A stretch of 64,000 nt of DNA from Fibrobacter sp. UWEL (lineage in GTDB: Bacteria > Fibrobacterota > Fibrobacteria > Fibrobacterales > Fibrobacteraceae), in assembly GCF_900142535.1 (NCBI RefSeq), contig NZ_FRBE01000016.1, positions 1-64,000 on the forward strand, in the 5' to 3' direction. The notes under the pieces are model-generated. The model worked only from the letters and a program-made list of their open reading frames with translations. It had not been told where the DNA came from and made no database searches. A program made the position numbers and the translations under genes. Below, piece after piece: positions 24,858 through 39,612 of the stretch (positions are counted from its first letter, which is position 1; each line of letters begins with the position of its first letter).

Positions 24858-25754
24858 ATGATTCTTTCAGAATATATCCAGCAATTTCTTACGTATTTGA
24901 CGTCCCAACGTCGTTTTTCCGTACGTACGGAAGATACTTACAGAAAGTCCCTGACGAAGTTCATGGAACATCTGGGAGATGAAAACGCCCCGCTGGAAAG
25001 CTTTACGGAAGCAAACGTAAAAGGCTTCGTGTGGGACTTGAAAATCAAGCAGCAGCTTGCTCCCACCAGCATTTGCGAACACCTGGCCGCCTTAAAAAGT
25101 TTCGGCAAGTACCTGGTACGAAGCCTGGTCCTGAAGAGTAATCCCGCGGGAAACGTTCCCATGCCCAAGCGCCCCAAAAGGTTGGTATCCTTCTTGAGCC
25201 AGAAGGACTTAGGCGAAGAGAAGTTCCCCGAAATCGAGAACCCCACGTTGCCGCAAGCCCGCGCTCGCCTTCTGCTGGAGCTGATTTATGGTTCCGGCCT
25301 GCGAATTTCCGAATGCCAGAGCTTGCACTGGAACCAGATTCAGGCCAGCCAGCACCTAGTGCGAGTGATTGGTAAAGGCAACAAGGAACGAATCGTCCCC
25401 GTTACAGACGCACTCCTGAACCGCATTGAAGAATTCAGGCAGTTGCAGACAAAAGCGGGACACCCCATGACAGCTACAGGACTTGTGTTCTTGAGCGGGG
25501 ACGGAAAGCCCTTCGGCCTCCGGACTTTACGGGACGACATCCACAATCTCCTGCGGGAAATCGGCTGGGAAGGAAAGGCAAGCCCCCACGTACTCCGCCA
25601 TAGTTTCGCCACCCACCTGCTGGAAAACGGCGCAGAAATCATGAGCGTCAAGGAAATGCTGGGCCACGAAAATATTTCCACCACCCAAGTCTACACCCAC
25701 GTCAGCGCAGAACGCCTGCGGGAAGCCTTCAAGAAGACGCACCCAAGAGCTTAG
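24858..25754 (+). CDS. Tyrosine recombinase, XerC/XerD type
   Basis: Encodes 298 residues, the usual Xer length. The N-terminal SAM-like core-binding domain is [19 protein letters not shown]. The catalytic residues are present in order: Arg in GSGLRISE, Lys in [18 protein letters not shown] (His, Arg), LGHENIS (His) and the Tyr nucleophile in STTQVYTHV. It most likely resolves chromosome dimers; XerC and XerD cannot be told apart here. It is divergent from the PorV-like gene, and a 7-bp repeat array begins directly after its stop. Confidence 0.92.
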
Positions 25755-25835: not shown

Positions 25836-28748
25836 ATGGCTGAAAAAACCTTACTTTTGCTTGACTCCTACGCATTAGCGTTCCGCATGTTCTATGCCTA
25901 CTCCCAGAACCCGCTGAAAAACAGCGCGGGCGAAGACGTGTCCATGATGCACGGCTACTGGGGCGCCGTCCTGAGGATTCTCGCCAAGCATCAGCCTACT
26001 CATTTTGCAATCGCCCGAGACGTGGCCCACACCAAGACTTTCCGCCACGAATTGTATCCGGATTACAAGGCCAATCGCGGCCCCATGCCCGAAGAAATGG
26101 CAGCCCAGATGCCTCTCCTTGGCGAATCCCTTGCCGCCAGCGGAATCCCGCTCTTGTCGGAACCGGGATACGAAGCAGACGACGTCATGGCAAGTACTGC
26201 CGTAGCCGCCGCAGAAGCAGGCTTCGACCGCATTCTGATTATCAGTAAAGACAAGGACATGAGCCAGATCGTGAACGACAAGATTCACCTGTTCCATCTG
26301 GAAAAAGGCGCCGACGGCATTGACTTCGGCCCGGATCAGGTTCTTGAAAAGTACGGCTTGCCGCCGGAAAAAATCCGTGACTATTTGGCCCTGATGGGAG
26401 ACGCCAGCGATAACGTTCCTGGCGTACCGAAGGTTGGTCCCAAGACCGCCATTACGCTGTTGGAAGAATACGGCGACATGGACAACATCTACGCCAACAT
26501 CGATAACATCAAGAAGAAAGGCCTTCACGACAATCTGGCCAACAATAAGGAACAGGCATTCCTCAGCCGCGAACTGGTCACCCTCCAGACCAAGCGTGCC
26601 TTCAACGGCAGCCTGGACGCCCTGGAATACACAGGCATTCATGTAGACACCTTGGCCGACATGTTCAAGGAACACGAGATCAACAGCCTGCTGAGACTAT
26701 TGGAAAAGATACCCAGCAAGACCGGTTTCGTTAAGGGTTCTGAAAATGAATCTGGCACAGAGAGCGCAGGCGAATCCGGTTCGGAAAGCGTCCAAGGCGC
26801 AGGCGTGACCCGTGCAGATTTTGACATGCCCAAGGACGTCTTGCCCACCTACATTTGCGTGGATTCCGCTGAAGTCTTTGAACAGATGAAAGCAGAGTTT
26901 GCAGCGGCTCCCCTCATTGGAGTGGACACGGAAACCGACGGATTGGATCCTATGCAGTGCGGCCTTGTGGGACTGTGCATTGCCGCCGTTGACGCAAGCG
27001 AGAGCGTCGTCGACGCTGAAAGCAAGCGCACCGACTATACGGTTAGCAAGGGTTATTACATTCCCCTGAACCATCGGGATGAAATCGGATTCCCGCAGCC
27101 CGTAGCAAAGGGCGGAAACTTCGATATCAACCTGGTGAAGGAATGGTTCGTTGATTTTTTCAGCAAGGTCCCCGAGCCTGCCGAGGGTCCGACGCGCGCC
27201 TTCGTTTTCCATAACGCAAAGTTCGACTTGCACGTTCTGGCTCGAGCATTCGGTCTGACACAGCAGCAGATTGATAACGCCAACATCATCGACACCCTCA
27301 TTGCCGCATGGATGTTAAGCCCCGGCGAAAACGGCCTCGGTTTGGACAATCAAGTGATGCAAAAGCTGCAGCACGAAATGATTCCCATCGAGAATCTTAT
27401 TGGCCGCGGCAAGAGCCAGATTACTTTCGACCGCACACCGATTGCAGCCGCCACCGAGTATGGTGCAGAAGATGCAGTTTATACCTTACGCCTGTGGGCA
27501 CCCCTACAGAAGCAGTTACAGAAATACGACTACGAGAAGTATTTCTACCAGCAGGAAATGCCTTTGCTGAAGGTGCTATACCAGATGGAATCCGTAGGCA
27601 TCGCGGTCAACGTTCCCAGCTTGAAAACTCTGGAATTTGAACTGCAGCGTCGCATTGAAAATCTTGAAAAAGACATTTGTGACATGGCGGGAACGGAATT
27701 CAACATCGGAAGCCCCAAGCAATTGGCCGAGGTCATGTTCGACACCCTAGGTTTGCGTGAAGTGAAAAAACGTAGTACCGACGCAACCGTCCTGGAAGAA
27801 CTGTTCTATGAGACTGCAAGTCCCTTCGTAGCCTCCGTCATTGAATATCGCGAATTGAAGAAGATGCAGAGTACCTACGTGAGCGTTTTGCCCACTCTGG
27901 TCAATCCCGAGACCAAGCGTATTCATACCAGCTTTATCCAGTGGGGTACAGCAACAGGCCGCCTCTCCAGCCGTGATCCCAACCTGCAGAACATTCCCGT
28001 TCGTAGCGACTTGGGCAAGAAAATTCGCGCAGCCTTCGTCCCGCAGAATCCGGACAACGTGATTCTCGCCGTAGACTACTCTCAGATTGAATTGAGAATG
28101 CTGGCTCACTTGAGTGGTGACGAAGCCCTCATCGATTCTTACCGCAACAACATTGATATTCATGCCCGTACCGCGGCGGCTATTTACGGTGTACCGCTGG
28201 AAAACGTCACCAGCGATATGCGTCGCGACGCCAAGGTAGTGAACTTCGGCGTTCTTTACGGTATGACCGCCTTCCGCCTCTCTCGCGACTTGAAAATTCC
28301 CATGGGTCAGGCCAAGGATTTTATTACGGGCTACTTCGATATGTTCCAGGGCGTTCAGATGTTCATCGAAAGCACCAAGGCCAACGCCCATCGCGACGGT
28401 TACGTGGAGACCCTCTCAGGACGCCGCCGCTACATCGCAGGTATCGACAGCTCCGACCGCATGGAATCCCAGATGGCAGAACGTATGGCAGTAAACACTC
28501 CCGTGCAGGGCAGTGCCGCGGACCTCATCAAGATTGCCATGATCCGCATCCAGAAGAGAATCAACGACGAAGCCCTGCCTCTGAAGATGATGCTCCAGGT
28601 TCACGACGAACTGGTCTTCGAATGTCCCCGCGACCGCGTTGAAGAACTCTCCGCCATGGTAAAGTCCGAAATGGAAAACGCCATGAAGTTGCAAGTTCCT
28701 TTAGTAGCCAGCGTCGGCTTCGGCGAAAACTGGCTGATTGCCCATTAA
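25836..28748 (+). CDS. polA: DNA polymerase I
   Basis: Encodes 970 residues with all three domains: 5'-3' flap nuclease (about 1-300, SGYEADDVMAS-like GYEADDVM and DNVPGVPKVGPKTA), 3'-5' exonuclease (about 335-530) with intact D-x-E in VDTETDGLD (about 362), HNAKFDLH and the later YGAEDAVYTL, and the polymerase domain with TGRLSSRDPNLQNIP, DYSQIELRMLAH (about 746) and MLQVHDELVFE. It is about 40 residues longer than the E. coli enzyme, partly from an acidic linker near 305-330 and a short palindrome-derived insert near 445-452. It starts 4 bases after a TACATTCG box. Confidence 0.97.
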   Translation: MAEKTLLLLDSYALAFRMFYAYSQNPLKNSAGEDVSMMHGYWGAVLRILAKHQPTHFAIARDVAHTKTFRHELYPDYKANRGPMPEEMAAQMPLLGESLAASGIPLLSEPGYEADDVMASTAVAAAEAGFDRILIISKDKDMSQIVNDKIHLFHLEKGADGIDFGPDQVLEKYGLPPEKIRDYLALMGDASDNVPGVPKVGPKTAITLLEEYGDMDNIYANIDNIKKKGLHDNLANNKEQAFLSRELVTLQTKRAFNGSLDALEYTGIHVDTLADMFKEHEINSLLRLLEKIPSKTGFVKGSENESGTESAGESGSESVQGAGVTRADFDMPKDVLPTYICVDSAEVFEQMKAEFAAAPLIGVDTETDGLDPMQCGLVGLCIAAVDASESVVDAESKRTDYTVSKGYYIPLNHRDEIGFPQPVAKGGNFDINLVKEWFVDFFSKVPEPAEGPTRAFVFHNAKFDLHVLARAFGLTQQQIDNANIIDTLIAAWMLSPGENGLGLDNQVMQKLQHEMIPIENLIGRGKSQITFDRTPIAAATEYGAEDAVYTLRLWAPLQKQLQKYDYEKYFYQQEMPLLKVLYQMESVGIAVNVPSLKTLEFELQRRIENLEKDICDMAGTEFNIGSPKQLAEVMFDTLGLREVKKRSTDATVLEELFYETASPFVASVIEYRELKKMQSTYVSVLPTLVNPETKRIHTSFIQWGTATGRLSSRDPNLQNIPVRSDLGKKIRAAFVPQNPDNVILAVDYSQIELRMLAHLSGDEALIDSYRNNIDIHARTAAAIYGVPLENVTSDMRRDAKVVNFGVLYGMTAFRLSRDLKIPMGQAKDFITGYFDMFQGVQMFIESTKANAHRDGYVETLSGRRRYIAGIDSSDRMESQMAERMAVNTPVQGSAADLIKIAMIRIQKRINDEALPLKMMLQVHDELVFECPRDRVEELSAMVKSEMENAMKLQVPLVASVGFGENWLIAH
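27167..27193. repeat. Palindromic repeat copy, in frame in polA
   Basis: GGTCCCCGAGCCTGCCGAGG followed by GTCCGAC. It is translated as VPEPAEGPT in the exonuclease domain, between DFFSK and RAFVFHN. It resembles the GAGCCTGTCGAAG core found four times in the pectate lyase gene. Confidence 0.55.
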
Positions 28749-28785
28749 ACCATCCAAATGATTTTTTAAACACAAGAGGAAACCT

Positions 28786-28899
28786 ATGGCAGATCAAAAT
28801 CCTAAGAAAATGTCTCCCAAAGTGGCAATTGCATTGATTATCGGCATAATCATCGTTTGCAACGCCATTGTGATTATCGGTAGCCAGCTGAGCCACTAA
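28786..28899 (+). CDS. 37-residue single-helix membrane protein
   Basis: A short frame with a good ribosome site (AGAGGAAA, then CCT, then ATG). The product has a polar basic start (MADQNPKKMSPK), one hydrophobic helix (VAIALIIGIIIVCNAIVIIG) and a short tail SQLSH. It begins 37 bases after the polA stop and is followed by a strong terminator at 28951, so it is probably the last gene of the polA transcript. No family is recognised; conservation in relatives would decide whether it is real. Confidence 0.6.
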   Translation: MADQNPKKMSPKVAIALIIGIIIVCNAIVIIGSQLSH

Positions 28900-28950
28900 C
28901 AAGTCCCGTTTCAGCACAAATCATTGTAATTTCTTCAAATCTTTTTTCAA

Positions 28951-28989
28951 GAGCAGACGTTTCATAAGAACGTTTGCTCCATTTTTTAT
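28951..28989 (+). terminator. Intrinsic terminator after polA and the small membrane gene
   Basis: GAGCA-G-ACGTT (28951-28961) pairs with AACGT-T-TGCTC (28969-28979), followed by CATTTTTT. It separates the replication genes from the cellulase cluster. Confidence 0.8.
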
Positions 28990-29001
28990 ATAGATTACAC
29001 A

Positions 29002-29013
29002 TCGGTGATTTGG
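29002..29013 (+). promoter_or_regulatory. Leader element shared by GH5 genes 1 and 2
   Basis: TCGGTGATTTGG occurs here and again at 30740-30751, each just downstream of a TATA-type promoter box (TATAGATT here). It lies 52 bases before the ATG at 29066. Either part of the promoter/transcription start or a leader RNA element. Confidence 0.45.
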
Positions 29014-29065
29014 TCCTTCGTATTGGTGGTACGAGGGGTGTTTAGGAAAAATTTAGAGGACCATT

Positions 29066-30622
29066 ATGAAAAAACTGCTTTTGGGCGCAGCTTTCGCATG
29101 CGCATTCGGCTTGTTAAACGCAGCCACACTCCCCAAGGCAACTGAAATTTACCCCAACATGGGTCTGGGCTGGAACCTGGGCAACACCATGGAAGTTCCC
29201 AAGGATCCTACCGCCTGGGGTAACGTTGTTCCGTCTGCAGACGTCATCAAGGCGGTGAAGCTGGCGGGTTTCAATACCATCCGCATTCCCTGCGCCTGGA
29301 ATTCCCACGCAAGCAACGGCACCATTGACGCAACCTGGCTCGCAACCGTAAAGGGAGTGGTGGACGCCGCCATTTCTTACGGTATGTATGTCTTGCTAAA
29401 CAGCCATTGGGACGAAGGCTGGCTGGAAGACCACGTATTCGATGGCCAGGGCTACGACAAGACGGGCCTCGTCAGCAATTCCGCCACACAGTTGGCCGCT
29501 AAACAGAGCAGCTACTGGAAGCAGATTGCAGACTACTTCAAGGACTACGACGAACACCTGATTTTCGCCAGCGCCAACGAGCCCGGCGTCAACGATCCCT
29601 GGCAAGCAAACGGACAGTGGGCTTTTACCAATGAAAGAATGCAGGTTCTCAAGTCCTATCACGAAGCCTGCATCAAGGCGGTCCGTAACAGCGGCGGAAA
29701 CAACGCCACCCGCACCATCATCGTACAGATGCCCCGCACCGAAATTGAAAACAGCGACATGCTGGCTAACAGCTACCCCACGGACCCGGCAGGCTCTGGA
29801 TACACCATGGCCGAGGCTCACTTTTACCCCTACCAGTTCGCCTTTATGGAAAAAGACGAAAGCTGGGGCAAGGTTTACTATTACTGGGAAAGCGAAACCA
29901 CTGGCGATGCAAACCGCACCTGCAGCGGCAACGCCACTGGTTCCAAGAACTTTATCGAATCCCAGTTCAGCAAGCTGGAAAACACCTTCGTGAAGAAGGG
30001 CATTCCCGTGGTCATCGGTGAAATGGGCATCAACAAGCGCTACAGCCGCGTAGGTCAATCCGACTTCAATCTGGATAAGCACCTGAGGGCAGTTGCCGCC
30101 TGGTACGGCTATACCGTGGGTTCCGCGAAAAAGCACGGCCTGGTACCCTGCGTGTGGGACACGGGCTACGAACGTAAAACCGGTGGCGACGGCGATGGGG
30201 ACATGACCATTATCCGTCGCCAGGCAAAGTACGGTAGCGACCTGGGTGCCATCGTGGACACCGCCACCATGAACGCCATGAAGCGCAGTTTTGGTGTAGG
30301 CGAAGTAGTGTTACCCCCCATCGTGCAGACCACCGTTTCCAGCAGCTCCGTGCAGCCGGCAGCCTCTAGCTCCAGCAACCAACAGGTTCCACCGATGGTC
30401 CTCGACGCCACAACGCAATCCCCCAGGGCCTCCCTCACCCGTCAGGGCAACCTGCTGGTGGCACAGGGTAACCGCGCTGAAATCCGCCTCTTCGACATGA
30501 ACGGCAACCTGATTCGCGCAGTTCGCTCCACCTCCAATGCAACCCTCAGCCTCACCGGCCTGAGCAACGGAATGTATATCGCCAAGAGCGGTTCCACCAC
30601 TCTAAAGGTCAAAATCAAGTAA
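29066..30622 (+). CDS. Secreted GH5 cellulase 1 with C-terminal sorting-type domain
   Basis: Encodes 518 residues: a signal peptide (MKKLLLGAAFACAFGLLNA), a GH5 catalytic domain (about 22-415), a Ser/Pro linker (about 420-445) and a C-terminal domain of about 65 residues (IRLFDMNGNLIRAVRS, NGMYIAKSG, ending KVKIK) like type IX sorting domains. The acid/base is E172 (ANEPG) and the nucleophile E319 (VVIGEMG). The opening MGLGWNLGNTMEVP and overall layout resemble GH5 subfamily 4 endoglucanases. The loop after the third strand is of the NSHWDEGWLEDHVFDG type, as in gene 4. It should cleave beta-1,4-glucan at the cell surface. Ribosome site AGAGG before the ATG. Confidence 0.92.
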   Translation: MKKLLLGAAFACAFGLLNAATLPKATEIYPNMGLGWNLGNTMEVPKDPTAWGNVVPSADVIKAVKLAGFNTIRIPCAWNSHASNGTIDATWLATVKGVVDAAISYGMYVLLNSHWDEGWLEDHVFDGQGYDKTGLVSNSATQLAAKQSSYWKQIADYFKDYDEHLIFASANEPGVNDPWQANGQWAFTNERMQVLKSYHEACIKAVRNSGGNNATRTIIVQMPRTEIENSDMLANSYPTDPAGSGYTMAEAHFYPYQFAFMEKDESWGKVYYYWESETTGDANRTCSGNATGSKNFIESQFSKLENTFVKKGIPVVIGEMGINKRYSRVGQSDFNLDKHLRAVAAWYGYTVGSAKKHGLVPCVWDTGYERKTGGDGDGDMTIIRRQAKYGSDLGAIVDTATMNAMKRSFGVGEVVLPPIVQTTVSSSSVQPAASSSSNQQVPPMVLDATTQSPRASLTRQGNLLVAQGNRAEIRLFDMNGNLIRAVRSTSNATLSLTGLSNGMYIAKSGSTTLKVKIK

Positions 30623-30664
30623 ATTCGCCATTTTTTAAAAGAAACCGCAAATTTACATCTGTTG

Positions 30665-30703
30665 AAAGTTCCGCACCACTTATCCGTGGGGCGGACTTTT
30701 TTT
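30665..30703 (+). terminator. Terminator after GH5 gene 1
   Basis: AAGTTCCGCACCAC pairs imperfectly with GTGGGGCGGACTT around loop TTATCC and is followed by a run of seven T. The next gene's promoter starts about 25 bases later, so gene 2 has its own promoter. Confidence 0.7.
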
Positions 30704-30739
30704 GTGAACGTTCCACATTCCACGCCTTTATATTTATGT

Positions 30740-30751
30740 TCGGTGATTTGG
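30740..30751 (+). promoter_or_regulatory. Second copy of the shared GH5 leader element
   Basis: TCGGTGATTTGG, identical to 29002-29013, preceded by TATATTTATG and 18 bases before the ATG at 30770. Confidence 0.45.
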
Positions 30752-30769
30752 AAAAACATAAGGGATGAT

Positions 30770-32455
30770 ATGAAAAAATTGATGTTTGGCGCCGCACTGG
30801 CTTGCGCATTCGGCCTCGCTCAGGCAGAACTCCCCTCCGCAGCAAGTATTCAAAAGAATATGGGCATGGGTTACAATATCGGAAACTCCATGGAAGTGCC
30901 CAACGATCCCACCGGATGGGGCAATCCCTATCCCACCCAGGCCCTGCTGGATTCCATCAAGGCAGCTGGTTTCAACACCGTCCGTATCCCCTGCGCCTGG
31001 GATTCCCATACACAGAACGGCAAGATTACCGAAACTTGGCTGGACTCCGTGAAGACGGTGGTGGATTACGCCATGCGTAATGGCCTCTACACCATCCTGA
31101 ACATCCATCACGAAGGTCAAGGCGGTTGGTTCCAGACCCATATGTCCACCTACAAGGACAACACTCTTGACACCAAGATGAAGAACTATTGGACCCAGAT
31201 TGCAGACAAGTTCAAGAATTACGACGAACATCTGATTTTTGCAGGCGCCAACGAACCGGGCGAAGGCCAGGAAGGTCTTACCTGGACAAGCCAGCACGCC
31301 CAGGTTTTGATGGGCTACTATCAGACATTTATTGATGCCGTCCGCGCTACAGGCGGAAATAACGGCACCCGCACCTTGATTATTCAGGGTCTCCAGACCG
31401 ATATCGACAAGTCCGACAGCCTCGCACCCGTCAGCATTTTCCCCAAGGACAAGGTATCCGGCCGCCTCATGTTCGAGGTACATTTTTACGGTCCCTATCA
31501 GTATGTGCTCATGACTAGTAAACAGACCTGGGGAGACAAGGAAATCTTGCCCCAATATTACTACGGAGACTACCAGAAGGCTAGCGAGCCCAAGCGCAAC
31601 TGCGGTTACAACGCTTGGGCAAACGCCGTCGATTCTGAACAGGCAGGGATCGGCTTTCCTAACAAGCAATTCGCAAAAATGAAAGCCCATTATGTGGACA
31701 AGGGCTACCCCGTCATTATCGGCGAATTCGGCTCCCTGTACCGTTCTCCGGAATTGAGTGGTTCCGACCTGGAACTCCATAAGAAAGGACGAATCCAGTG
31801 GCATAAGGATGTGGTTACCGCCGCCAAGAACAATGGTGTCACCCCCATTCTCTGGGACATGGGCAACGAGGCTGCCGAATACGACAACATGGCCTACATC
31901 CGCCGCCAGACAAACAAGTTCGGCGGCCAGATGGGCAACGTAATCGAACCGGAAATCATCAACGCCATGCGCGGCGTTTACGGTATGGGAACCTACAATA
32001 ATACCGGCGTTACCCATACGGAAGCCTTTATTCCCGGCAGCGGCGTGCCGGTTATTGGCGGTTCAGCAACACCGGATATTTCCAGCAGTTCCGTCACCAT
32101 ATCCTCTAGCTCCGTGCAGCCAGTCGTTTCAAGTTCTAGCATCGCTGTTTCCAGCAGTTCTGTGCAGCCGGTTGTTTCTAGCAGTTCTGTTGCACCCGTG
32201 GTTACCAGTTCCAGCAGCGAGGCTATCCTGGGAATCCTTGCCCCGCAGGTGGCAAACGCAACCCTTACCCGCCAGGGCAATATGCTGGTAGCACAGGACA
32301 ATCGCGCTTCCATCCGTCTCTTCGACATGAACGGCAATCTGATTCGTGAAGTTCGCGCCCTCTCCAACAAGGCAATCTTGAGCCTTGCAGGTCTCCGCAA
32401 GGGATCCTACATCGCCAAGAGCGGAAATCAGGTCCTGAAGGTTTCCGTGAAGTAA
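30770..32455 (+). CDS. Secreted GH5 cellulase 2 with C-terminal sorting-type domain
   Basis: Encodes 561 residues from the ATG at 30770 (AAGGGA ribosome site); the frame is open upstream to 30662, but the signal peptide MKKLMFGAALACAFGLAQA fixes the start. The GH5 domain (about 22-415) has E162 (ANEPG) as acid/base and E319 (IIGEFG) as nucleophile. Its loop NIHHEGQGGWFQTHM differs from gene 1 but matches gene 3. Three serine-rich linkers (about 435-490, SSSSVQPVVSSSS type) lead to a C-terminal domain nearly identical to that of gene 1 (IRLFDMNGNLIREVRA, SYIAKSG). Surface beta-glucanase of the same cluster. Confidence 0.92.
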   Translation: MKKLMFGAALACAFGLAQAELPSAASIQKNMGMGYNIGNSMEVPNDPTGWGNPYPTQALLDSIKAAGFNTVRIPCAWDSHTQNGKITETWLDSVKTVVDYAMRNGLYTILNIHHEGQGGWFQTHMSTYKDNTLDTKMKNYWTQIADKFKNYDEHLIFAGANEPGEGQEGLTWTSQHAQVLMGYYQTFIDAVRATGGNNGTRTLIIQGLQTDIDKSDSLAPVSIFPKDKVSGRLMFEVHFYGPYQYVLMTSKQTWGDKEILPQYYYGDYQKASEPKRNCGYNAWANAVDSEQAGIGFPNKQFAKMKAHYVDKGYPVIIGEFGSLYRSPELSGSDLELHKKGRIQWHKDVVTAAKNNGVTPILWDMGNEAAEYDNMAYIRRQTNKFGGQMGNVIEPEIINAMRGVYGMGTYNNTGVTHTEAFIPGSGVPVIGGSATPDISSSSVTISSSSVQPVVSSSSIAVSSSSVQPVVSSSSVAPVVTSSSSEAILGILAPQVANATLTRQGNMLVAQDNRASIRLFDMNGNLIREVRALSNKAILSLAGLRKGSYIAKSGNQVLKVSVK

Positions 32456-32499
32456 ATTTTCAACGCGCTAAAAAAAAGATACTCTCATCCAGACAAACC

Positions 32500-32537
32500 A
32501 GAAATCCGGGCGGCAACGTCCGGATTTCTTCTTTTTC
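32500..32537 (+). terminator. Terminator after GH5 gene 2
   Basis: AGAAATCCGG (32500-32509) pairs perfectly with CCGGATTTCT (32520-32529), then TCTTTTTC. The rest of the gap up to gene 3 is AT-rich promoter and leader sequence. Confidence 0.8.
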
Positions 32538-32612
32538 GTCAAAAAACACAAGTTTTATTATCTCAGCGGGGTATCAAAAGCCTCCTCTTTCGATGTAAAT
32601 TTTCATTAACAT

Positions 32613-32645
32613 CCGTTGAACATATTGCACCGCTATTTTACAACA
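32613..32645 (+). promoter_or_regulatory. Upstream element shared by GH5 genes 3 and 4
   Basis: CCGTTGA, 8 bases, CACC, then TTTTACAAC. The same order CCGTTGA-N8-CACC...TTACAAC is found at 34910-34940 before gene 4. A possible regulator site or promoter -35 region. A separate dyad ACGGGAA/TTCCCGT lies at 32722-32737, just before the ribosome site. Confidence 0.4.
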
Positions 32646-32749
32646 TCACGTTTAATTTGATCCTAAACAAGGCTTTCCTATTTAACTTTATTAACGGTTG
32701 TTTGGTTCCTTTGGGTTGGAAACGGGAATTTTCCCGTCAAAGGAGCAAT

Positions 32750-34822
32750 ATGAATTATTCTAGACTTTTGGGCCTTACTGCAGGTCTCAGCCTCATGGCT
32801 GGCGTTTCCGCCTTTGCCGCTTTCCCCAAATCCGCCGATCTCGTCACAAAGATGGGTTTTGGTTTTAACATCGGCAACTCCATGGAAGTGCCTAATGACC
32901 CCACCGGTTGGGGCAACCCCTTCCCCACCAAGGATTTGATGGATTCCATCAAGGCAGCAGGTTTCTCCACCGTTCGTATTCCCTGCGCATGGGATTCCCA
33001 CGCACCGGGCGGCGTCATTACCGAAACCTGGCTGGACTCCGTAAAGACCGTTGTGGATTACGCCATCGCTAACCAGCTTTATGTCGTTTTGAACATCCAT
33101 CACGAAGGTGAAGGCGGCTGGTTCCAGACTCACATCGACGAAACCGTGGACAACACCGTCGATACCAAGATGAAGAATTACTGGACCCAGATTGCAACGA
33201 AGTTCGCTGCTTACGACGAACACCTGATTTTCGCAGGCGCCAACGAACCGGGTTCCAACCTGGGCGACAAGTGGACCGCAAACCATGTGTCCACCTTGAT
33301 GCACTACTACCAGACTTTCATCAACGCAGTTCGTGCCGTTCCCGGTAACGAAACCCGCACCTTGATCATTCAGGGTTTGAACACAGACATCGACAAGTCC
33401 GTAAAGAGCGCTCCGGTGACCGTATTCCCCACCGACACCCAGACCGGCTACCTGATGTTCGAAGTGCATTACTATGATCCGTACCAGTACACCCTCATGT
33501 ACGAAGAACAGGATTGGGGCGCACCGAACAACGAAAAGATTATTCCCCAGTACTTCTATGGTGCAGACTTCCTGAGCACCACCGAACCCAAGCGCAACGC
33601 TGGTTATAACGCCTGGGCAGGTTCTGTGGACGCTGCCTACTACACCGAAAAGCATGTGAATACCCAGTTCGCCAAGATGAAGAGCAACTATGCCGACAAG
33701 GGCTATCCTGTTCTCATCGGTGAATTCGGCGCCAACATCCGTACTCCGGATCTGGACGGTGCTGATCTGGAAAAGCACCTGAAGGGTCGTGTCCAGTGGC
33801 ACAAGGACGTTGCCGCTGCCGCCAAGAAGTACGGTGTGGTCCCTGTTCTTTGGGACATGGGTAACGAAAGCACCGATGGTTACGACAACATGGCCTATAT
33901 CCGCCGTCAGTCCGCTCCTGTGGGCAAGATTGTGGACGCAGACGCCATCAACGCCATCCGCGAAGCATTCAATATGACCGCTGTGATCGGCGGCGGCACC
34001 ACTCCTGTAATTCAGGCTGGTGACAAGGCTCTCCACGTCACTTACAAGACTGTTCAATCCGACTCTTCCGAAGCAGGTACGGTACGTATTGACCTGGGCG
34101 GTAAGGACTGGTCTCAGTATGTTGCAATCTCCTTCGACATGCGTGTAGCCGGCGAATCTGCAGGTCCTTGCCTGGATCAGACCCGCGACGGTTGTGCTGA
34201 ATACGGCTGGGCAAGCGTTTCCCTGTTCAACATGTCCGGCGAATGGGACTGGAAGGAAGTGAGCCTGGGTAACGTTGAAGACCTTGGCCTCCTGGACAAC
34301 TACAAGATTGCTTTCGGTGCTACCGGCATGGCCATTACCGATCCTACCGACATGAAGGCCATCGGCATTAACCTTTACGGCACTCAGTTCACCGGCGACA
34401 TGTATCTGGACAACATGCTCCTGTGGAAGGCCGACGGTACTGCAGACACCCTGAACAACTTCAACAAGAAGGGCGCAAGCTACGGTGGTATTGCAAAGGG
34501 ATCTCTCATCCAGGCAAACGCAACCGGCGACTGGGGCGTCACCACTACTCCGAGCACCGCCATCAAGCCCACTGCAACCGCATCTCGCAAGATGCAGGTT
34601 TCCATCCAGCAGGGTCTGGTGAACACCACCTTCCACTCTCCCAGAGCTTCTCAGGCTAGCGTCATGCTGCTGAACACCCTGGGTCAGGAAGTGGCCGCAA
34701 AGCACTTTACCGCTATGCCGGGCTCCAACAGCGTGCAGCTCTCCACCAACTACCGCGGTGCAGCAGTGCTGATCGTGAAGCAGGGTAAGGTCGCCTACTC
34801 CAAGCGAGTCATCCTGAAGTAA
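32750..34822 (+). CDS. Secreted GH5 cellulase 3 with CBM-like domain
   Basis: Encodes 690 residues from the ATG at 32750 (AAAGGAG ribosome site, signal peptide MNYSRLLGLTAGLSLMAGVSAFA). The GH5 domain (about 25-415) has E166 (ANEPG) and E325 (LIGEFG); the loop NIHHEGEGGWFQTHI matches gene 2. A beta-sandwich of about 170 residues follows (HVTYKTVQSDSSEAGTVRID, ending in MYLDNMLLWKADG), like carbohydrate-binding modules of families 11/30; the family is uncertain. The C-terminus (about 600-690) is a distinct domain ending NYRGAAVLIVKQG...RVILK, shared with gene 4 only. There is no poly-Ser linker. Confidence 0.9.
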   Translation: MNYSRLLGLTAGLSLMAGVSAFAAFPKSADLVTKMGFGFNIGNSMEVPNDPTGWGNPFPTKDLMDSIKAAGFSTVRIPCAWDSHAPGGVITETWLDSVKTVVDYAIANQLYVVLNIHHEGEGGWFQTHIDETVDNTVDTKMKNYWTQIATKFAAYDEHLIFAGANEPGSNLGDKWTANHVSTLMHYYQTFINAVRAVPGNETRTLIIQGLNTDIDKSVKSAPVTVFPTDTQTGYLMFEVHYYDPYQYTLMYEEQDWGAPNNEKIIPQYFYGADFLSTTEPKRNAGYNAWAGSVDAAYYTEKHVNTQFAKMKSNYADKGYPVLIGEFGANIRTPDLDGADLEKHLKGRVQWHKDVAAAAKKYGVVPVLWDMGNESTDGYDNMAYIRRQSAPVGKIVDADAINAIREAFNMTAVIGGGTTPVIQAGDKALHVTYKTVQSDSSEAGTVRIDLGGKDWSQYVAISFDMRVAGESAGPCLDQTRDGCAEYGWASVSLFNMSGEWDWKEVSLGNVEDLGLLDNYKIAFGATGMAITDPTDMKAIGINLYGTQFTGDMYLDNMLLWKADGTADTLNNFNKKGASYGGIAKGSLIQANATGDWGVTTTPSTAIKPTATASRKMQVSIQQGLVNTTFHSPRASQASVMLLNTLGQEVAAKHFTAMPGSNSVQLSTNYRGAAVLIVKQGKVAYSKRVILK

Positions 34823-34850
34823 AATTCTTCAAGATTAACCGTTTTGTTGA

Positions 34851-34888
34851 GAAATCCGTCCCATTTTGGGATGGATTTCTTCGTTTTT
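34851..34888 (+). terminator. Terminator after GH5 gene 3
   Basis: GAAATCC-G-TCCCA pairs with TGGGA-T-GGATTTC around a TTT loop, followed by TTCGTTTTT. Confidence 0.75.
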
Positions 34889-34909
34889 AAGCAAAAAACG
34901 CCACCACAC

Positions 34910-34940
34910 CCGTTGAGATTTTTACACCACATATTACAAC
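34910..34940 (+). promoter_or_regulatory. Second copy of the element shared by GH5 genes 3 and 4
   Basis: CCGTTGA-N8-CACC-N5-TTACAAC, about 106 bases before the ATG at 35016. Counterpart of 32613-32645. Confidence 0.4.
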
Positions 34941-35015
34941 GTGGAATACGTTTTTCGAAACATATCTCCATCCGGAGTATAAATTCATTAGTGCAATAAT
35001 CTTAACGAGGTGTTT

Positions 35016-37070
35016 ATGGTTTTGAAAAATTTCTTCGGTCTTGCCTGTGGTTTTGGCCTCATGGCTGCCACTAGCGCATTCGCACTTCCCAAGTCCGCAG
35101 ATCTCGTAGCAGACATGGGCATGGGTTACAACATCGGTAATACCATGGAAGCCCCCGGTAATCCCACCATCTGGGGTAACGATTTCCCCACAGCCGAATA
35201 CGTCAAGGCTATCAAGGCTGCAGGCTTTAACTCCGTCCGCATTCCCTGCGCCTGGGATTCTCACGCATCCAATGGCGTGATCAATGCCGGCTGGCTGGAT
35301 TCCGTCAAGACCGTCGTGGACATGGTCGTTGGCGAAGGCATGTACGCCGTGCTGAACTCCCACTGGGATGGCGGCTGGCTGGAAGACCACGTCTTTGATG
35401 GCGCAGGCTACGACAAGAATGGCGCAACCACCAACAGTGCAGCCACCGTGGCAGCAACGCAAGAAGCCTACTGGGGCCAGATTGCGGCCAAGTTCGCCGA
35501 ATACGATGAACATCTGATTTTTGCATCTGCCAACGAACCGGGCGTTAACGACCCGTGGATGGATGGCGGTACCGACAACGGCCAGTGGGGTTTTGATGCC
35601 GCCCGTATGAAGGTTCTGCGTCAGTACCACGAAGCCTGCCTGAAGGCAGTCCGTAACGCCGGCGGCAACAACGCCACCCGTACCGTGGTGGTGCAGATGC
35701 CCCGTACCGAAATTGACAAGTATGAACTTTTGGCAAGTGATTATCCTACCGACCCCGCTGGCGAAGGCTACACCATGGCCGAAGCCCACTACTATCCGTA
35801 TCAGTTCTCCCTCATGACTGAAGACGCTACCTGGGGTAAGTGCTTCTACTATTTCGACGGAATGGGTTCTACCACCGACACACCTCATAACATGGGTTCC
35901 AGCGCAACCACCTTGGGCACCAAGCTCTATACCGAAGCTCAGTTCACAAAGCTTGAAACCGCCTTCGGTAGCAAGGGTATTCCCGTAATCATCGGCGAAT
36001 TCGGTGCAGTCAAGCGCCTCGAAGAAATCACCGGCGATAACCTGGGCCTCCACCTGAAGGGTCGTGCAGCCTGGTACGGTTCCGTGGCAAAGTCCGCCAA
36101 GGCTCACAACATCGTGACCTTCGCATGGGATACTGGCGATGAAGGCAATGGCAACATGACCATCATCCGTCGCCAGACCAAGAAATACGGCGGAAAGGTC
36201 GGTGACATCGTCGACATCGAAACTCTGAATGCCCTGCGTGCCGAATATAGCTTGGCAGCTCTTGAAGGACATTCCGTTATCGATTCCCTGGTCGCAGCAA
36301 GCAAGGACGATTCCAACAAGATGTTGTCCATTACCTACACCACTACCGGTCGCACCGACTCCAGCGAAGTGGGCACCATGCGTATTGACCTGGGCGGCAA
36401 GAATTGGAGCAAGTATATAGGCATTCAGTTTGATGCAGAAATCGACATTGCCAACGGCGGCCCCCTGGACGGCGAAACCTATGGTTGGGAAAGCGCATCC
36501 GTTTTCGCAATGACAGGTTCCTCCTGGACATGGCATGACTACAACCTGGATATCGAAGCAGGCAAGGCAACCTATAAGGTGATGTTCGAAGACATGTCCA
36601 ACGATTTCAACGCATCTTCCGTGAACGCCATCGGCCTGAACATCTACGGCACCCTGGTTACTGGAACCGTCAAGATGGACAACCTGATGCTTATCAAGAA
36701 GGACGGCACCCTTGAAGTCCTCAACGACTTCAACAAGAAGACCCCCACTCTGGAAGGCATTGCAGAAGGCAAGCTGGTTGCATCCACCTTTGCAGCCCCC
36801 ATCACCGCCATCAAGCCTGCAGCCATCGCAGCAAGCAAGATGTTCGTGAACGTCCAGCAGGGCTTCGTGAACGCCACCTTCCCCGCACAGGCAAACGTTC
36901 AGGGCAAGGCCATGATCATGAACACCATGGGTCAGGTCATTGCTAGCGAAAGCTTCGTGACCCGCTCCGGCAACAACACCGTTCAGCTGAAGGCCAACTA
37001 CCGCGGCGCCGCCATGCTCATCATCAAGCAGGGCAGCCAGGTATACAGCCAGAAGGTGATTCTGAAGTAA
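35016..37070 (+). CDS. Secreted GH5 cellulase 4 with CBM-like domain
   Basis: Encodes 684 residues from the ATG at 35016; a GTG two codons earlier lies within the ribosome site GAGGTG. Signal peptide MVLKNFFGLACGFGLMAATS. The GH5 domain has E174 (ANEPG) and E328 (IIGEFG). Its loop NSHWDGGWLEDHVFDG and the stretch through VQMPRTEID match gene 1 very closely. The following CBM-like sandwich (about 430-570) and the C-terminal domain (NYRGAAMLIIKQG...KVILK) match gene 3. So gene 4 combines the gene 1 type of catalytic core with the gene 3 type of ends. Surface beta-glucanase. Confidence 0.9.
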   Translation: MVLKNFFGLACGFGLMAATSAFALPKSADLVADMGMGYNIGNTMEAPGNPTIWGNDFPTAEYVKAIKAAGFNSVRIPCAWDSHASNGVINAGWLDSVKTVVDMVVGEGMYAVLNSHWDGGWLEDHVFDGAGYDKNGATTNSAATVAATQEAYWGQIAAKFAEYDEHLIFASANEPGVNDPWMDGGTDNGQWGFDAARMKVLRQYHEACLKAVRNAGGNNATRTVVVQMPRTEIDKYELLASDYPTDPAGEGYTMAEAHYYPYQFSLMTEDATWGKCFYYFDGMGSTTDTPHNMGSSATTLGTKLYTEAQFTKLETAFGSKGIPVIIGEFGAVKRLEEITGDNLGLHLKGRAAWYGSVAKSAKAHNIVTFAWDTGDEGNGNMTIIRRQTKKYGGKVGDIVDIETLNALRAEYSLAALEGHSVIDSLVAASKDDSNKMLSITYTTTGRTDSSEVGTMRIDLGGKNWSKYIGIQFDAEIDIANGGPLDGETYGWESASVFAMTGSSWTWHDYNLDIEAGKATYKVMFEDMSNDFNASSVNAIGLNIYGTLVTGTVKMDNLMLIKKDGTLEVLNDFNKKTPTLEGIAEGKLVASTFAAPITAIKPAAIAASKMFVNVQQGFVNATFPAQANVQGKAMIMNTMGQVIASESFVTRSGNNTVQLKANYRGAAMLIIKQGSQVYSQKVILK

Positions 37071-37147
37071 AGACCGCAGGCCCTAAGGATTTGTAAATCC
37101 CCAAAGTCCTAAGTCCAATTGACCGCGCGAAAATTTGGGATGTGTTT

Positions 37148-37175
37148 AAGCCCGGCCCCTTGTGGGTCGGGCTTT
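37148..37175 (+). terminator. Terminator after GH5 gene 4
   Basis: AAGCCCG (37148-37154) pairs with CGGGCTT (37168-37174), with an inner CCC/GGG arm; a short T run follows. Confidence 0.7.
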
Positions 37176-37232
37176 CTGTATGTTCTAAAGAACCCCAGCA
37201 GGAACAGCCCGCTTGGATAAAAAAAGATCTAC

Positions 37233-37269
37233 AAAAAAGAGCTGTACCTTGTTCAGATACAACTCTTTT
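37233..37269 (-). terminator. Terminator of maeB
   Basis: AAAAGAG-x-TGTA (37235-37246) pairs with TACA-x-CTCTTTT (37258-37269). On the minus strand it ends in TTTTTT, placing it 43 bases after the maeB stop. Confidence 0.75.
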
Positions 37270-37311
37270 CCTAAATACCCGCAGTAAAATCTTGCGGGGA
37301 TTTATAATCCA

Positions 37312-39612
37312 TTACTTCACGGGACGAGCCTTGTCGATACGTTCCTGAACGATTGCGTCGATGACGGCAGCAACGGTCAGGTTGAAGATATCGTGGACAG
37401 AAGCGTCGGCATCGGTGAAGTGAACCGGCTTCTTCAAGCCCATCTGTACAGGACCGATGGATTCGCCAACACCCATTTCCAGAAGCATCTTGCATGCAGT
37501 GTTTGCAGAAGAGAGGCAGGGGAAGATGAGGGTGTTAACGTCCTGACCCTTGATGGTGTTGAAGGGATACTTCTTGTCGCGAAGATCCTTGTTCAGGGCA
37601 ACGTTAGCCTGCATTTCGCCGTCGATAGCGTAGTCCGGATACTGTTCGTGAAGGATGTTAACTGCTTCCTGAACGGTGTTTGCAGTACCGCGGGCAGCAT
37701 TGTTGTCAGAACCGAAGTTAGCGTAGCTAAGCATAGCCATCACCGGTTCGTGTGCAAAGAACTTCACGGCGTCGTGAGTGAGCTTGACAATATCAACGAG
37801 GGTTTCTGCATCGGGATCGCGGTTCACCAGGGTATCAGCCAGGAAGAAGGTGCCCTTCTTGGTAGAAAGGATATGCATAGCACCGAAGTGCTTGTATTCC
37901 GGACGGATACCGATAATGTCCTTAGCCAGTTCGATGGAGGTAGTGATTCTGGAGTTTGCACCAGAGACGAATGCGTCTGCATCACCGGTCTTCACCATCA
38001 TCATACCGAAGTGGTTGCGTTCGAACATTTCGTCGCGAGCCTTTTCGAAGGTCACACCGTTACGGCCGTTTTCTTCGGCATAGATGCCAGCATACTTGAA
38101 GCGGCGATCAGCTTCGGCAGTAGAACGGGGATTAACCACATCGAGACCGGAGATATCCAGCTTTTCCTTGTCAGCAACTTCCTTGATGCGTTCCGGATTA
38201 CCCAGAAGGATCGGGAATGCAATGCCTTCTTCCTTAGCCTGGATAGCAGCCTTGATCATGTTGACGCTAGCACCTTCAGCGAATACAACGCGCTTGGGGT
38301 TGGAGCGAGCCATGTTTTCGAAACCGCGGATCAGCTTGTTGTCGTAGCCCATCATGTCGCGGAGGCTATCAGCATAAGCGTCCCAGTCGGTAATGGGCTT
38401 GCGAGCCACGCCACTTTCAATAGCAGCCTTAGCAACTGCAATAGACACGTCGGTCAGCAGGCGCGGATCCAGCGGCTTGGGGATGATGTACTTGGGACCG
38501 AAGCTGAAGCGTTCGGAGTTGTAAGCAATGTTCACTACATCAGGCACCGGCTTGCGAGCGAGAGCTGCAATAGCACGTACAGCGGCGTGCTTCATGTGTT
38601 CGTTAATAGCAGTAGCGCGAACGTCCAGAGCACCGCGGAAGATGTAGGGGAAGCCGATAACGTTGTTCACCTGGTTGGGATAGTCGCTACGGCCGGTTGC
38701 GAAGATAACGTCTTCACGAGCGGAGGTTGCTACATCATAGGAAACTTCCGGTGTGGGGTTTGCAAGAGCAAACACGATAGGCTTTGCAGCCATGGACTGG
38801 ATCATTTCCTTGGTGAGGATGTTGGGCTTGGAAAGGCCAAGGAACATGTCTGCACCCTTGATGGCTTCTTCCAGAGTCTTCACGTCTTCACGTTCGGTAG
38901 CGAAGAATTCCTTTTCCGGAGTGAGCTTGCCGCGACCCTTGTAGATCACGCCCTTGGAGTCCAGCATCACCACGTTTTCCTTCTTGACGCCCAGGGACAG
39001 GTACAGCTTGGTGCAAGCCACAGCAGCAGCACCGGCACCGTTCACCACCAGCTTGATCTTGTCGATGTCCTTGCCGGCAATTTCCAGAGCGTTCACGAGA
39101 GCAGCACTGGAGATAATTGCAGTACCATGCTGGTCATCGTGCATCACGGGAATATCCAATTCCTTCTTCAGGGTTTCTTCGATTTCGAAGCATTCCGGAG
39201 CCTTGATGTCTTCCAGGTTGATGCCGCCGAAAGTAGGAGCGATACCCTTAACGATTTCGATGAACTTCTTGGGATCCTTTTCGTTCACTTCGATATCGAA
39301 AACGTCCACACCTGCGTAGATCTTGAACAGAAGGCCCTTACCTTCCATCACAGGCTTACCAGCCATGGCGCCAATGTCACCCAGGCCCAGAACTGCAGTA
39401 CCGTTAGAAATCACTGCAACCAGGTTGCCCTTGCCGGTATAGTCGTAAGCAGTTTCCGGATTCTTTTCAATTTCCAAGCAGGGAACTGCTACACCCGGGG
39501 TGTATGCCAGGCCGAGATCGGTCTGAGTGCTGTGCGGCTTGGTAGGAACAACTTCGATCTTACCCGGTTTGCCGTTAGCGTGGTATGCAAGTGCCTTTTC
39601 TTCGAAGGTCAT
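37312..39612 (-). CDS. maeB: NADP-dependent malic enzyme, MaeB type
   Basis: Encodes 766 residues in the two-part MaeB layout. The malic enzyme half (about 1-430) has [42 protein letters not shown] and the nucleotide-binding [15 protein letters not shown]. The C-terminal half (about 430-766) is a phosphotransacetylase-like domain ([31 protein letters not shown]), which in this family is regulatory, not catalytic. It converts malate to pyruvate and CO2. It is monocistronic; a TATCTTGC box lies about 100 bases upstream and AAGGAG precedes the ATG. Confidence 0.95.

Follow-up and report, generated by a model that had tools for sequence, protein, structure and literature searches.

Mosaic GH5 genes of Fibrobacter sp. 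UWEL: probable exchange of catalytic cores and tails at domain borders

Catalytic and accessory modules of modular cellulases recombine by domain shuffling, and in type I restriction systems the target-recognition domains of HsdS are exchanged allelically. For CjGH5D, a xyloglucanase of Cellvibrio japonicus which we take to be a GH5_4 enzyme, no tandem mosaics are known to us. The basic terminal domain or FPm-1 of Fibrobacter succinogenes has been proposed to be the type IX sorting domain (PMC6851124, PMC3079729). Here, we describe four tandem GH5 genes (g1 to g4) of Fibrobacter sp. UWEL, which sit between polA and a malic enzyme-like gene in a stretch of 64,000 nucleotides (contig NZ_FRBE01000016.1, positions 1 to 64,000; hereafter the window), and compare them with 80 genomes of the genus (G numbers), many of which are metagenome assemblies. 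The four genes are a mosaic of catalytic cores and secretion ends, cores and tails are replaced at syntenic loci of other Fibrobacter, and the modules of one orthologous gene give conflicting trees. This GH5 mosaic very probably arises by recombination at domain borders, which exchanges cores or tails as blocks. The genes and their modules, with A-type and B-type cores and short and long tails, are as follows (CBM, carbohydrate-binding module; pLDDT, predicted local distance difference test).

29066..30622, + strand: g1, hybrid GH5 of 518 amino acids, in which a B-type core (HWD motif) lies between a g2-type signal peptide and a Ser linker, followed by a short-type sorting domain
29119..30290, + strand: block of B-type descent in g1 (mature N-terminus and core), its edges being the presumed switch points
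30413..30619, + strand: C-terminal sorting domain of g1, TIGR04183 29.2 bits (cut-off 23), 72% identical to that of g2
30770..32455, + strand: g2, of usual architecture, with Ser linker and short sorting domain behind an A-type core (HHE motif)
32245..32452, + strand: C-terminal sorting domain of g2
32750..34822, + strand: g3, hybrid that joins an A-type core to the long scaffold of CBM-like domain and long-type sorting domain
34022..34519, + strand: CBM-like beta-sandwich domain of g3, AlphaFold2 model with mean pLDDT 67
34589..34819, + strand: sorting domain of g3, modelled as a seven-stranded Ig-like sandwich, with a weak TIGR04183 match below cut-off
35016..37070, + strand: g4, of usual architecture, with CBM-like domain and long-type sorting domain behind a B-type core (HWD motif)
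36837..37067, + strand: sorting domain of g4

In the four-way protein alignment, 39 of the 44 quartet-informative columns of the core (columns 47-417) join g1 with g4 and g2 with g3, four join g1 with g2 and g3 with g4, and one joins g1 with g3 and g2 with g4. All informative columns from 493 on join g1 with g2 and g3 with g4, as do, by themselves a weak signal, the three informative columns of the N-terminal part; the N-side switch lies between columns 34 and 47. The C-terminal regions consist of a Ser linker and a sorting domain in g1 and g2, and of a CBM-like domain followed by a different sorting domain in g3 and g4. Within the own genome, the sorting domain of g2 is 72% identical to that of g1 and at most 41% to every other protein, and the tail of g3 is 48% identical to that of g4, besides which it finds a single match (E 0.035); the tail pairs are therefore specific and not general Fibrobacter tails. 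In rankings that include about 100 GH5 signal peptides from relatives, that of g2 is the closest of 100 to that of g1, while for g3 the signal peptide of g4 ranks 6th-7th and that of g2 90th-94th with long-scaffold genes preferred, so that the predicted pairing is solid for g1 with g2 and moderate for g3 with g4. The initial annotation, which had read from the letters alone that cores pair 1/4 and 2/3, that both ends pair 1/2 and 3/4 and that two scaffolds thus each host both catalytic types, is borne out in these respects by the four genes, in which all the motifs it cited are present. All four proteins match the Pfam family Cellulase (PF00150) with 152-203 bits against a cut-off of 23.5 and contain the two catalytic glutamate motifs (NEP, GEF/GEM). 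The listed reading frame of g2 opens 36 codons upstream at a TTG (30662-30769), yet the true start, to judge from the signal peptide that follows, is likely the ATG at 30770; that of g4 opens at 35010, and the gene is taken as 35016-37070.

The residues just past the signal peptide of g1, LPKATEIYPNMGLGWNL (LPKATEIYPNMGLGWNLGNTMEVP), are identical to those of G020 and G035, and the N-side switch is for this reason placed at the border between signal peptide and mature protein. In blastn comparisons, the similarity of g1 to G020 (70.5%) and G035 (71.0%) spans exactly 29119-30290/30291 and then ends, and the C-side switch lies at about residue 408; both junctions come close to the breakpoints anticipated near residues 20-30 and 410-420. 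The g1 core is 67-68% identical to those of G020 and G035 compared to 58% to g4, and in the core tree it groups with the long-tailed genes of G020, G035, G076 and G066 (Shimodaira-Hasegawa-like approximate likelihood ratio test, SH-aLRT, 99).

That whole cores are exchanged while the secretion ends are kept, as had been proposed for the window, is directly visible at other Fibrobacter loci. At a second locus, eight genomes have the flanks, the signal peptide and the sorting domain in common, and the GH5 gene carries three core types: an A core in G016, G022 and G069, a g1-like B core in G076 and another B-like core in G060, G028, G002 and G049. Identity mostly amounts to 85-97% in the flanks and 40-75% in the cores; among G076, G016 and G060 the first approximately 60 nucleotides of the gene are 95-98% and the last approximately 120 nucleotides 85-97% identical. 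For G076 and G016, 97-98% over the first approximately 60 nucleotides and 97% over the last 120 enclose a core and CBM-like part of mostly 40-75%. A BNR-repeat protein is encoded beside the second-locus GH5 gene in G016 (L108, 5433-8240, - strand), with a sorting domain approximately 84% identical to that of the G076 GH5 enzyme; sorting domains thus seem to be shared between unrelated neighbouring genes. Likewise, G025 and G055 share 95-100% identity over most of g2 and of gene Y, a distant GH5 gene (background approximately 98%), and in the g4 orthologue identity is 71-77% (54% in one gapped stretch) over a region that begins just past the signal peptide and extends almost to the core's end, followed by 97%.

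The orthologues of g4 extend this to the tails. Across eight genomes, two classes can be told apart for each of their modules (core, CBM-like and sorting), except that the window's own g4 core and CBM-like part are too diverged to be classed, and all four core-by-CBM as well as all four core-by-sorting combinations occur. In approximately unbiased (AU) tests, the core tree rejects the groups of the sorting domain (p 0.0012) and of the CBM-like part (p 3e-44), and the core groups are rejected by the sorting domain (p 7.5e-5) as well as by the CBM-like part (p 0.0017), p values that are somewhat optimistic as the groups were named after the identity matrices had been seen. Neither the sorting-domain groups on the CBM tree nor the CBM groups on the sorting-domain tree are rejected in these tests. 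In the window, the last 265 nucleotides of g4 are 84-85% identical to those of some relatives and the gene body approximately 70-73%.

Which of the four genes are hybrids is indicated by the interval between polA and the malic enzyme-like gene across the genus, framed by the following features.

25836..28748, + strand: polA, left flank kept across the genus
28899..30648, + strand: variable slot between polA and g2, occupied by g1 in the window and by gene X in six relatives, empty in G024
37312..39612, - strand: malic enzyme-like gene (named from its sequence), right flank kept across the genus

This interval typically holds a gene with A core and short tail followed by a gene with B core, CBM-like domain and long tail, or the latter alone. 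As g2 and g4 fit this pattern, they represent the ancestral-type pair, and g1 and g3 are the hybrids. The g2 core is 85-87% identical at the protein level to orthologues of horse-faeces Fibrobacter. A full-length counterpart of g1 was found nowhere else among the 80 genomes; its slot is filled by the different gene X in the six relatives, and in G024 window position 28601-28898 is joined directly to 30649 (blastn). In contrast, g3 has full-length relatives in G009 (88%) and G066 (70%), with which its core groups (96), G009 and the window are collinear along 3.7 kb of the g3-g4 block, and g3 is older than g1. The tail of g3 nests among tails of B-core genes (98 in the tail tree), and in G016, G022 and G069 an A core is combined with another type of long tail. 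On the core tree, the tail label changes at least four times, one of the 63 L labels (gene X of G039) being doubtful. The AU test does not reject a single clade for the 15 B cores with g3-type tails, and tail switching among those species is therefore not claimed. The HWD motif was rejected as a marker of the B clade, since the separate core clades of X and Y carry it too. Gene X itself (L065, 3903-6068, and orthologues) combines such a separate core with a CBM-like domain and a short-type sorting domain. Furthermore, rpoB was discarded as a species tree: it places the window with G053 and G024 with G066, yet polA of the latter two is only 82% identical compared to a near-identical rpoB. Owing to this conflict and to the rows of G026 and G059, which are probably read in the wrong frame, the events are not dated by rpoB. 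The discrepancy between G024 and G066 (L072, L105; rpoB loci L136, L137) suggests strong recombination or transfer among these Fibrobacter.

Taken together, g1 to g4 would encode exported GH5 enzymes built of exchangeable modules, in which a signal peptide and a catalytic core are followed by a linker or a CBM-like domain and then by a type IX sorting domain. The starting point is the ancestral-type pair, in which g2 joins an A core to a short tail and g4 a B core to a long one; from there, homologous recombination at the borders of the modules would have put a B core on the short scaffold, giving g1, and an A core on the long scaffold, giving g3. The incoming DNA may have come partly from other Fibrobacter species of the same gut and partly from paralogues, and conserved end stretches together with interchangeable sorting domains may make hybrids both likely to form and functional. 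Several points weigh against this explanation. An origin of the g1 core from g4 is not rejected by the AU test (p 0.12-0.18); a close relative that lacks the g1 swap in this slot is missing, so that the g1 event is not directly seen; and 3' ends are not generally homogenised within genomes, the tests giving p 8/720 for the last 35 codons and 81/720 for the last 75 codons of X and g2, and 183/720 for g4 and Y. In addition, many of the comparison genomes are metagenome assemblies, several of them of related strains from horse faeces or rumen. In a broader and only tentative form, the explanation would read that Fibrobacter species share a pool of GH5 cores, which are exchanged as cassettes into fixed frames of promoter, signal peptide and sorting domain, so that repertoires diversify by allelic core replacement between species and not by gene gain and loss.

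The rival that survives best, although we consider it rather doubtful, is exchange strictly between tandem neighbours of one chromosome, by gene conversion or unequal crossing-over. The signal peptide of g1 is closest to that of its own g2, gene X of G009 ends in a g2-like 3' end that is 88% identical to its own g2 but 66-79% to g2 of other genomes, and gene Y of G011 ends in a g4-like 3' end. However, the g1 core is not closest to g4, so that the swapping between tandem copies initially proposed lacks support as it stood, the AU result notwithstanding; moreover, the core class of G025 is common to other species (G053, G009), and the second-locus stretches each show one GH5 gene of this kind, where DNA from elsewhere is therefore needed. 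The 3' ends instead look like single conversions: X of G009 from g2, Y of G011 from a g4-type gene, and the tail of G021, where a B core and a CBM-like domain are closed by a short-type sorting domain. General concerted evolution of 3' ends is unsupported by the X/g2 and g4/Y tests, with single events only (G009 X/g2, G011 Y). In G011, gene Y (L070, 8153-10192) has an intact g4-like sorting domain; in L066 (12253-14169), L067 (12126-14042) and L071 (6282-8207) the sorting domain of Y is degenerate and possibly frameshifted.

Old vertical inheritance, in which an ancestral cluster contained all four combinations and lineage-specific losses created the present distribution with no recent exchange, is improbable. 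It applies in part to g3, which is old and shared with G009 and G066, the collinear g3-g4 block speaks for it, and the unrejected single clade of the 15 B cores agrees with it. It conflicts with the significantly discordant module trees of one orthologous gene, with close pairs that differ in the core alone, and with a g1 that occurs in one of 80 genomes. Chimeras of assembly or binning, conceivable given the metagenome-assembled genomes, are very improbable: a chimera would be made of nearly identical parent sequences, but the parts of g1 are only approximately 71-74% identical to any compared sequence. Moreover, g3 is present in two other genomes and the second-locus pattern in eight, and reading frames are intact. 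Programmed switching by a recombinase (shufflon-like) or a diversity-generating element, which the tyrosine recombinase gene just upstream of polA might bring to mind, is hardly credible, since the exchanged cores differ by approximately 25-50% including indels, unlike inversion, the recombinase resembles a housekeeping enzyme of the Xer type, and 28700-37400 lacks inverted repeats of at least 24 nucleotides, which argues against an invertible cassette. This Xer-like gene (24858-25754) lies at the same place in G053.

Regarding function, the closest solved relative of the g1 and g3 cores, which are candidates for GH5 subfamily 4, is CjGH5D (PDB 5oyc), and the top solved matches also include the exo-xyloglucanase 4w8a. 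The tails of g1 to g4 are probable type IX sorting domains, judged from the TIGR04183 match of g1 (29.2 bits; below the cut-off, 18.9 for g2, 13.0 for g3 and 17.7 for g4), from Ig-like matches and the model of the g3 tail, the one tail modelled, which shows a seven-stranded Ig-like beta-sandwich at residues 214-287 with moderate confidence, from a SprA/Sov translocon in the own genome (1115 bits), and from the proposal made for the Fibrobacter basic terminal domain. In Porphyromonas, the sorting domain of one cargo can be replaced by that of another (PMC11285876), and export of the hybrids would therefore be expected. The CBM-like domain has no Pfam match in g3 and a weak, sub-cut-off match to Mann_GBD_bact (mannanase galactose-binding domain) in g4; Foldseek searches with the g3 tail returned whole-model matches of low TM-score to multi-domain beta proteins, which give no information on the CBM-like part. 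The idea that anchoring stays constant is to be taken with reserve, as two types of sorting domain exist and these are swapped as well. That a core swap would affect the substrate range is a guess, and the variation of substrate loops suggested by the initial annotation is a possible purpose at most.

The loci compared illustrate how catalytic cores are naturally swapped among close relatives at fixed addresses, the junctions lying where the signal peptide ends and ahead of the sorting domain. Such junctions, tested by nature, might be used for engineering exported cellulases, and the loci could serve to examine how cellulose-degrading gut bacteria adapt their enzyme repertoires. Furthermore, GH5 trees and orthology based on whole proteins mix different histories in Fibrobacter.

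Compared to described systems, the tails resemble the basic terminal domain/FPm-1, a TIGR04183-like C-terminal module common to enzymes with different catalytic domains, for which transport and surface attachment were proposed; core exchange at fixed loci and independent assortment of modules between species are features found here, unlike in the accessible parts of those papers (PMC6851124, PMC3079729). CjGH5D, the best solved relative of both core types, represents one core type with the HWD motif. As in HsdS, a variable core is swapped in a conserved frame, whereas a repeat-mediated or programmed mechanism was not found in the GH5 locus. The openly searchable literature on Fibrobacter gene conversion, cellulase intragenic recombination and type IX domain shuffling yielded no account of core exchange. 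As domain shuffling, this kind of event is known; unlike in general domain shuffling, close relatives here exchange modules at one and the same address, the junctions lying at the signal peptide and the sorting domain, and it is this clarity at fixed addresses among close relatives that is unusual.

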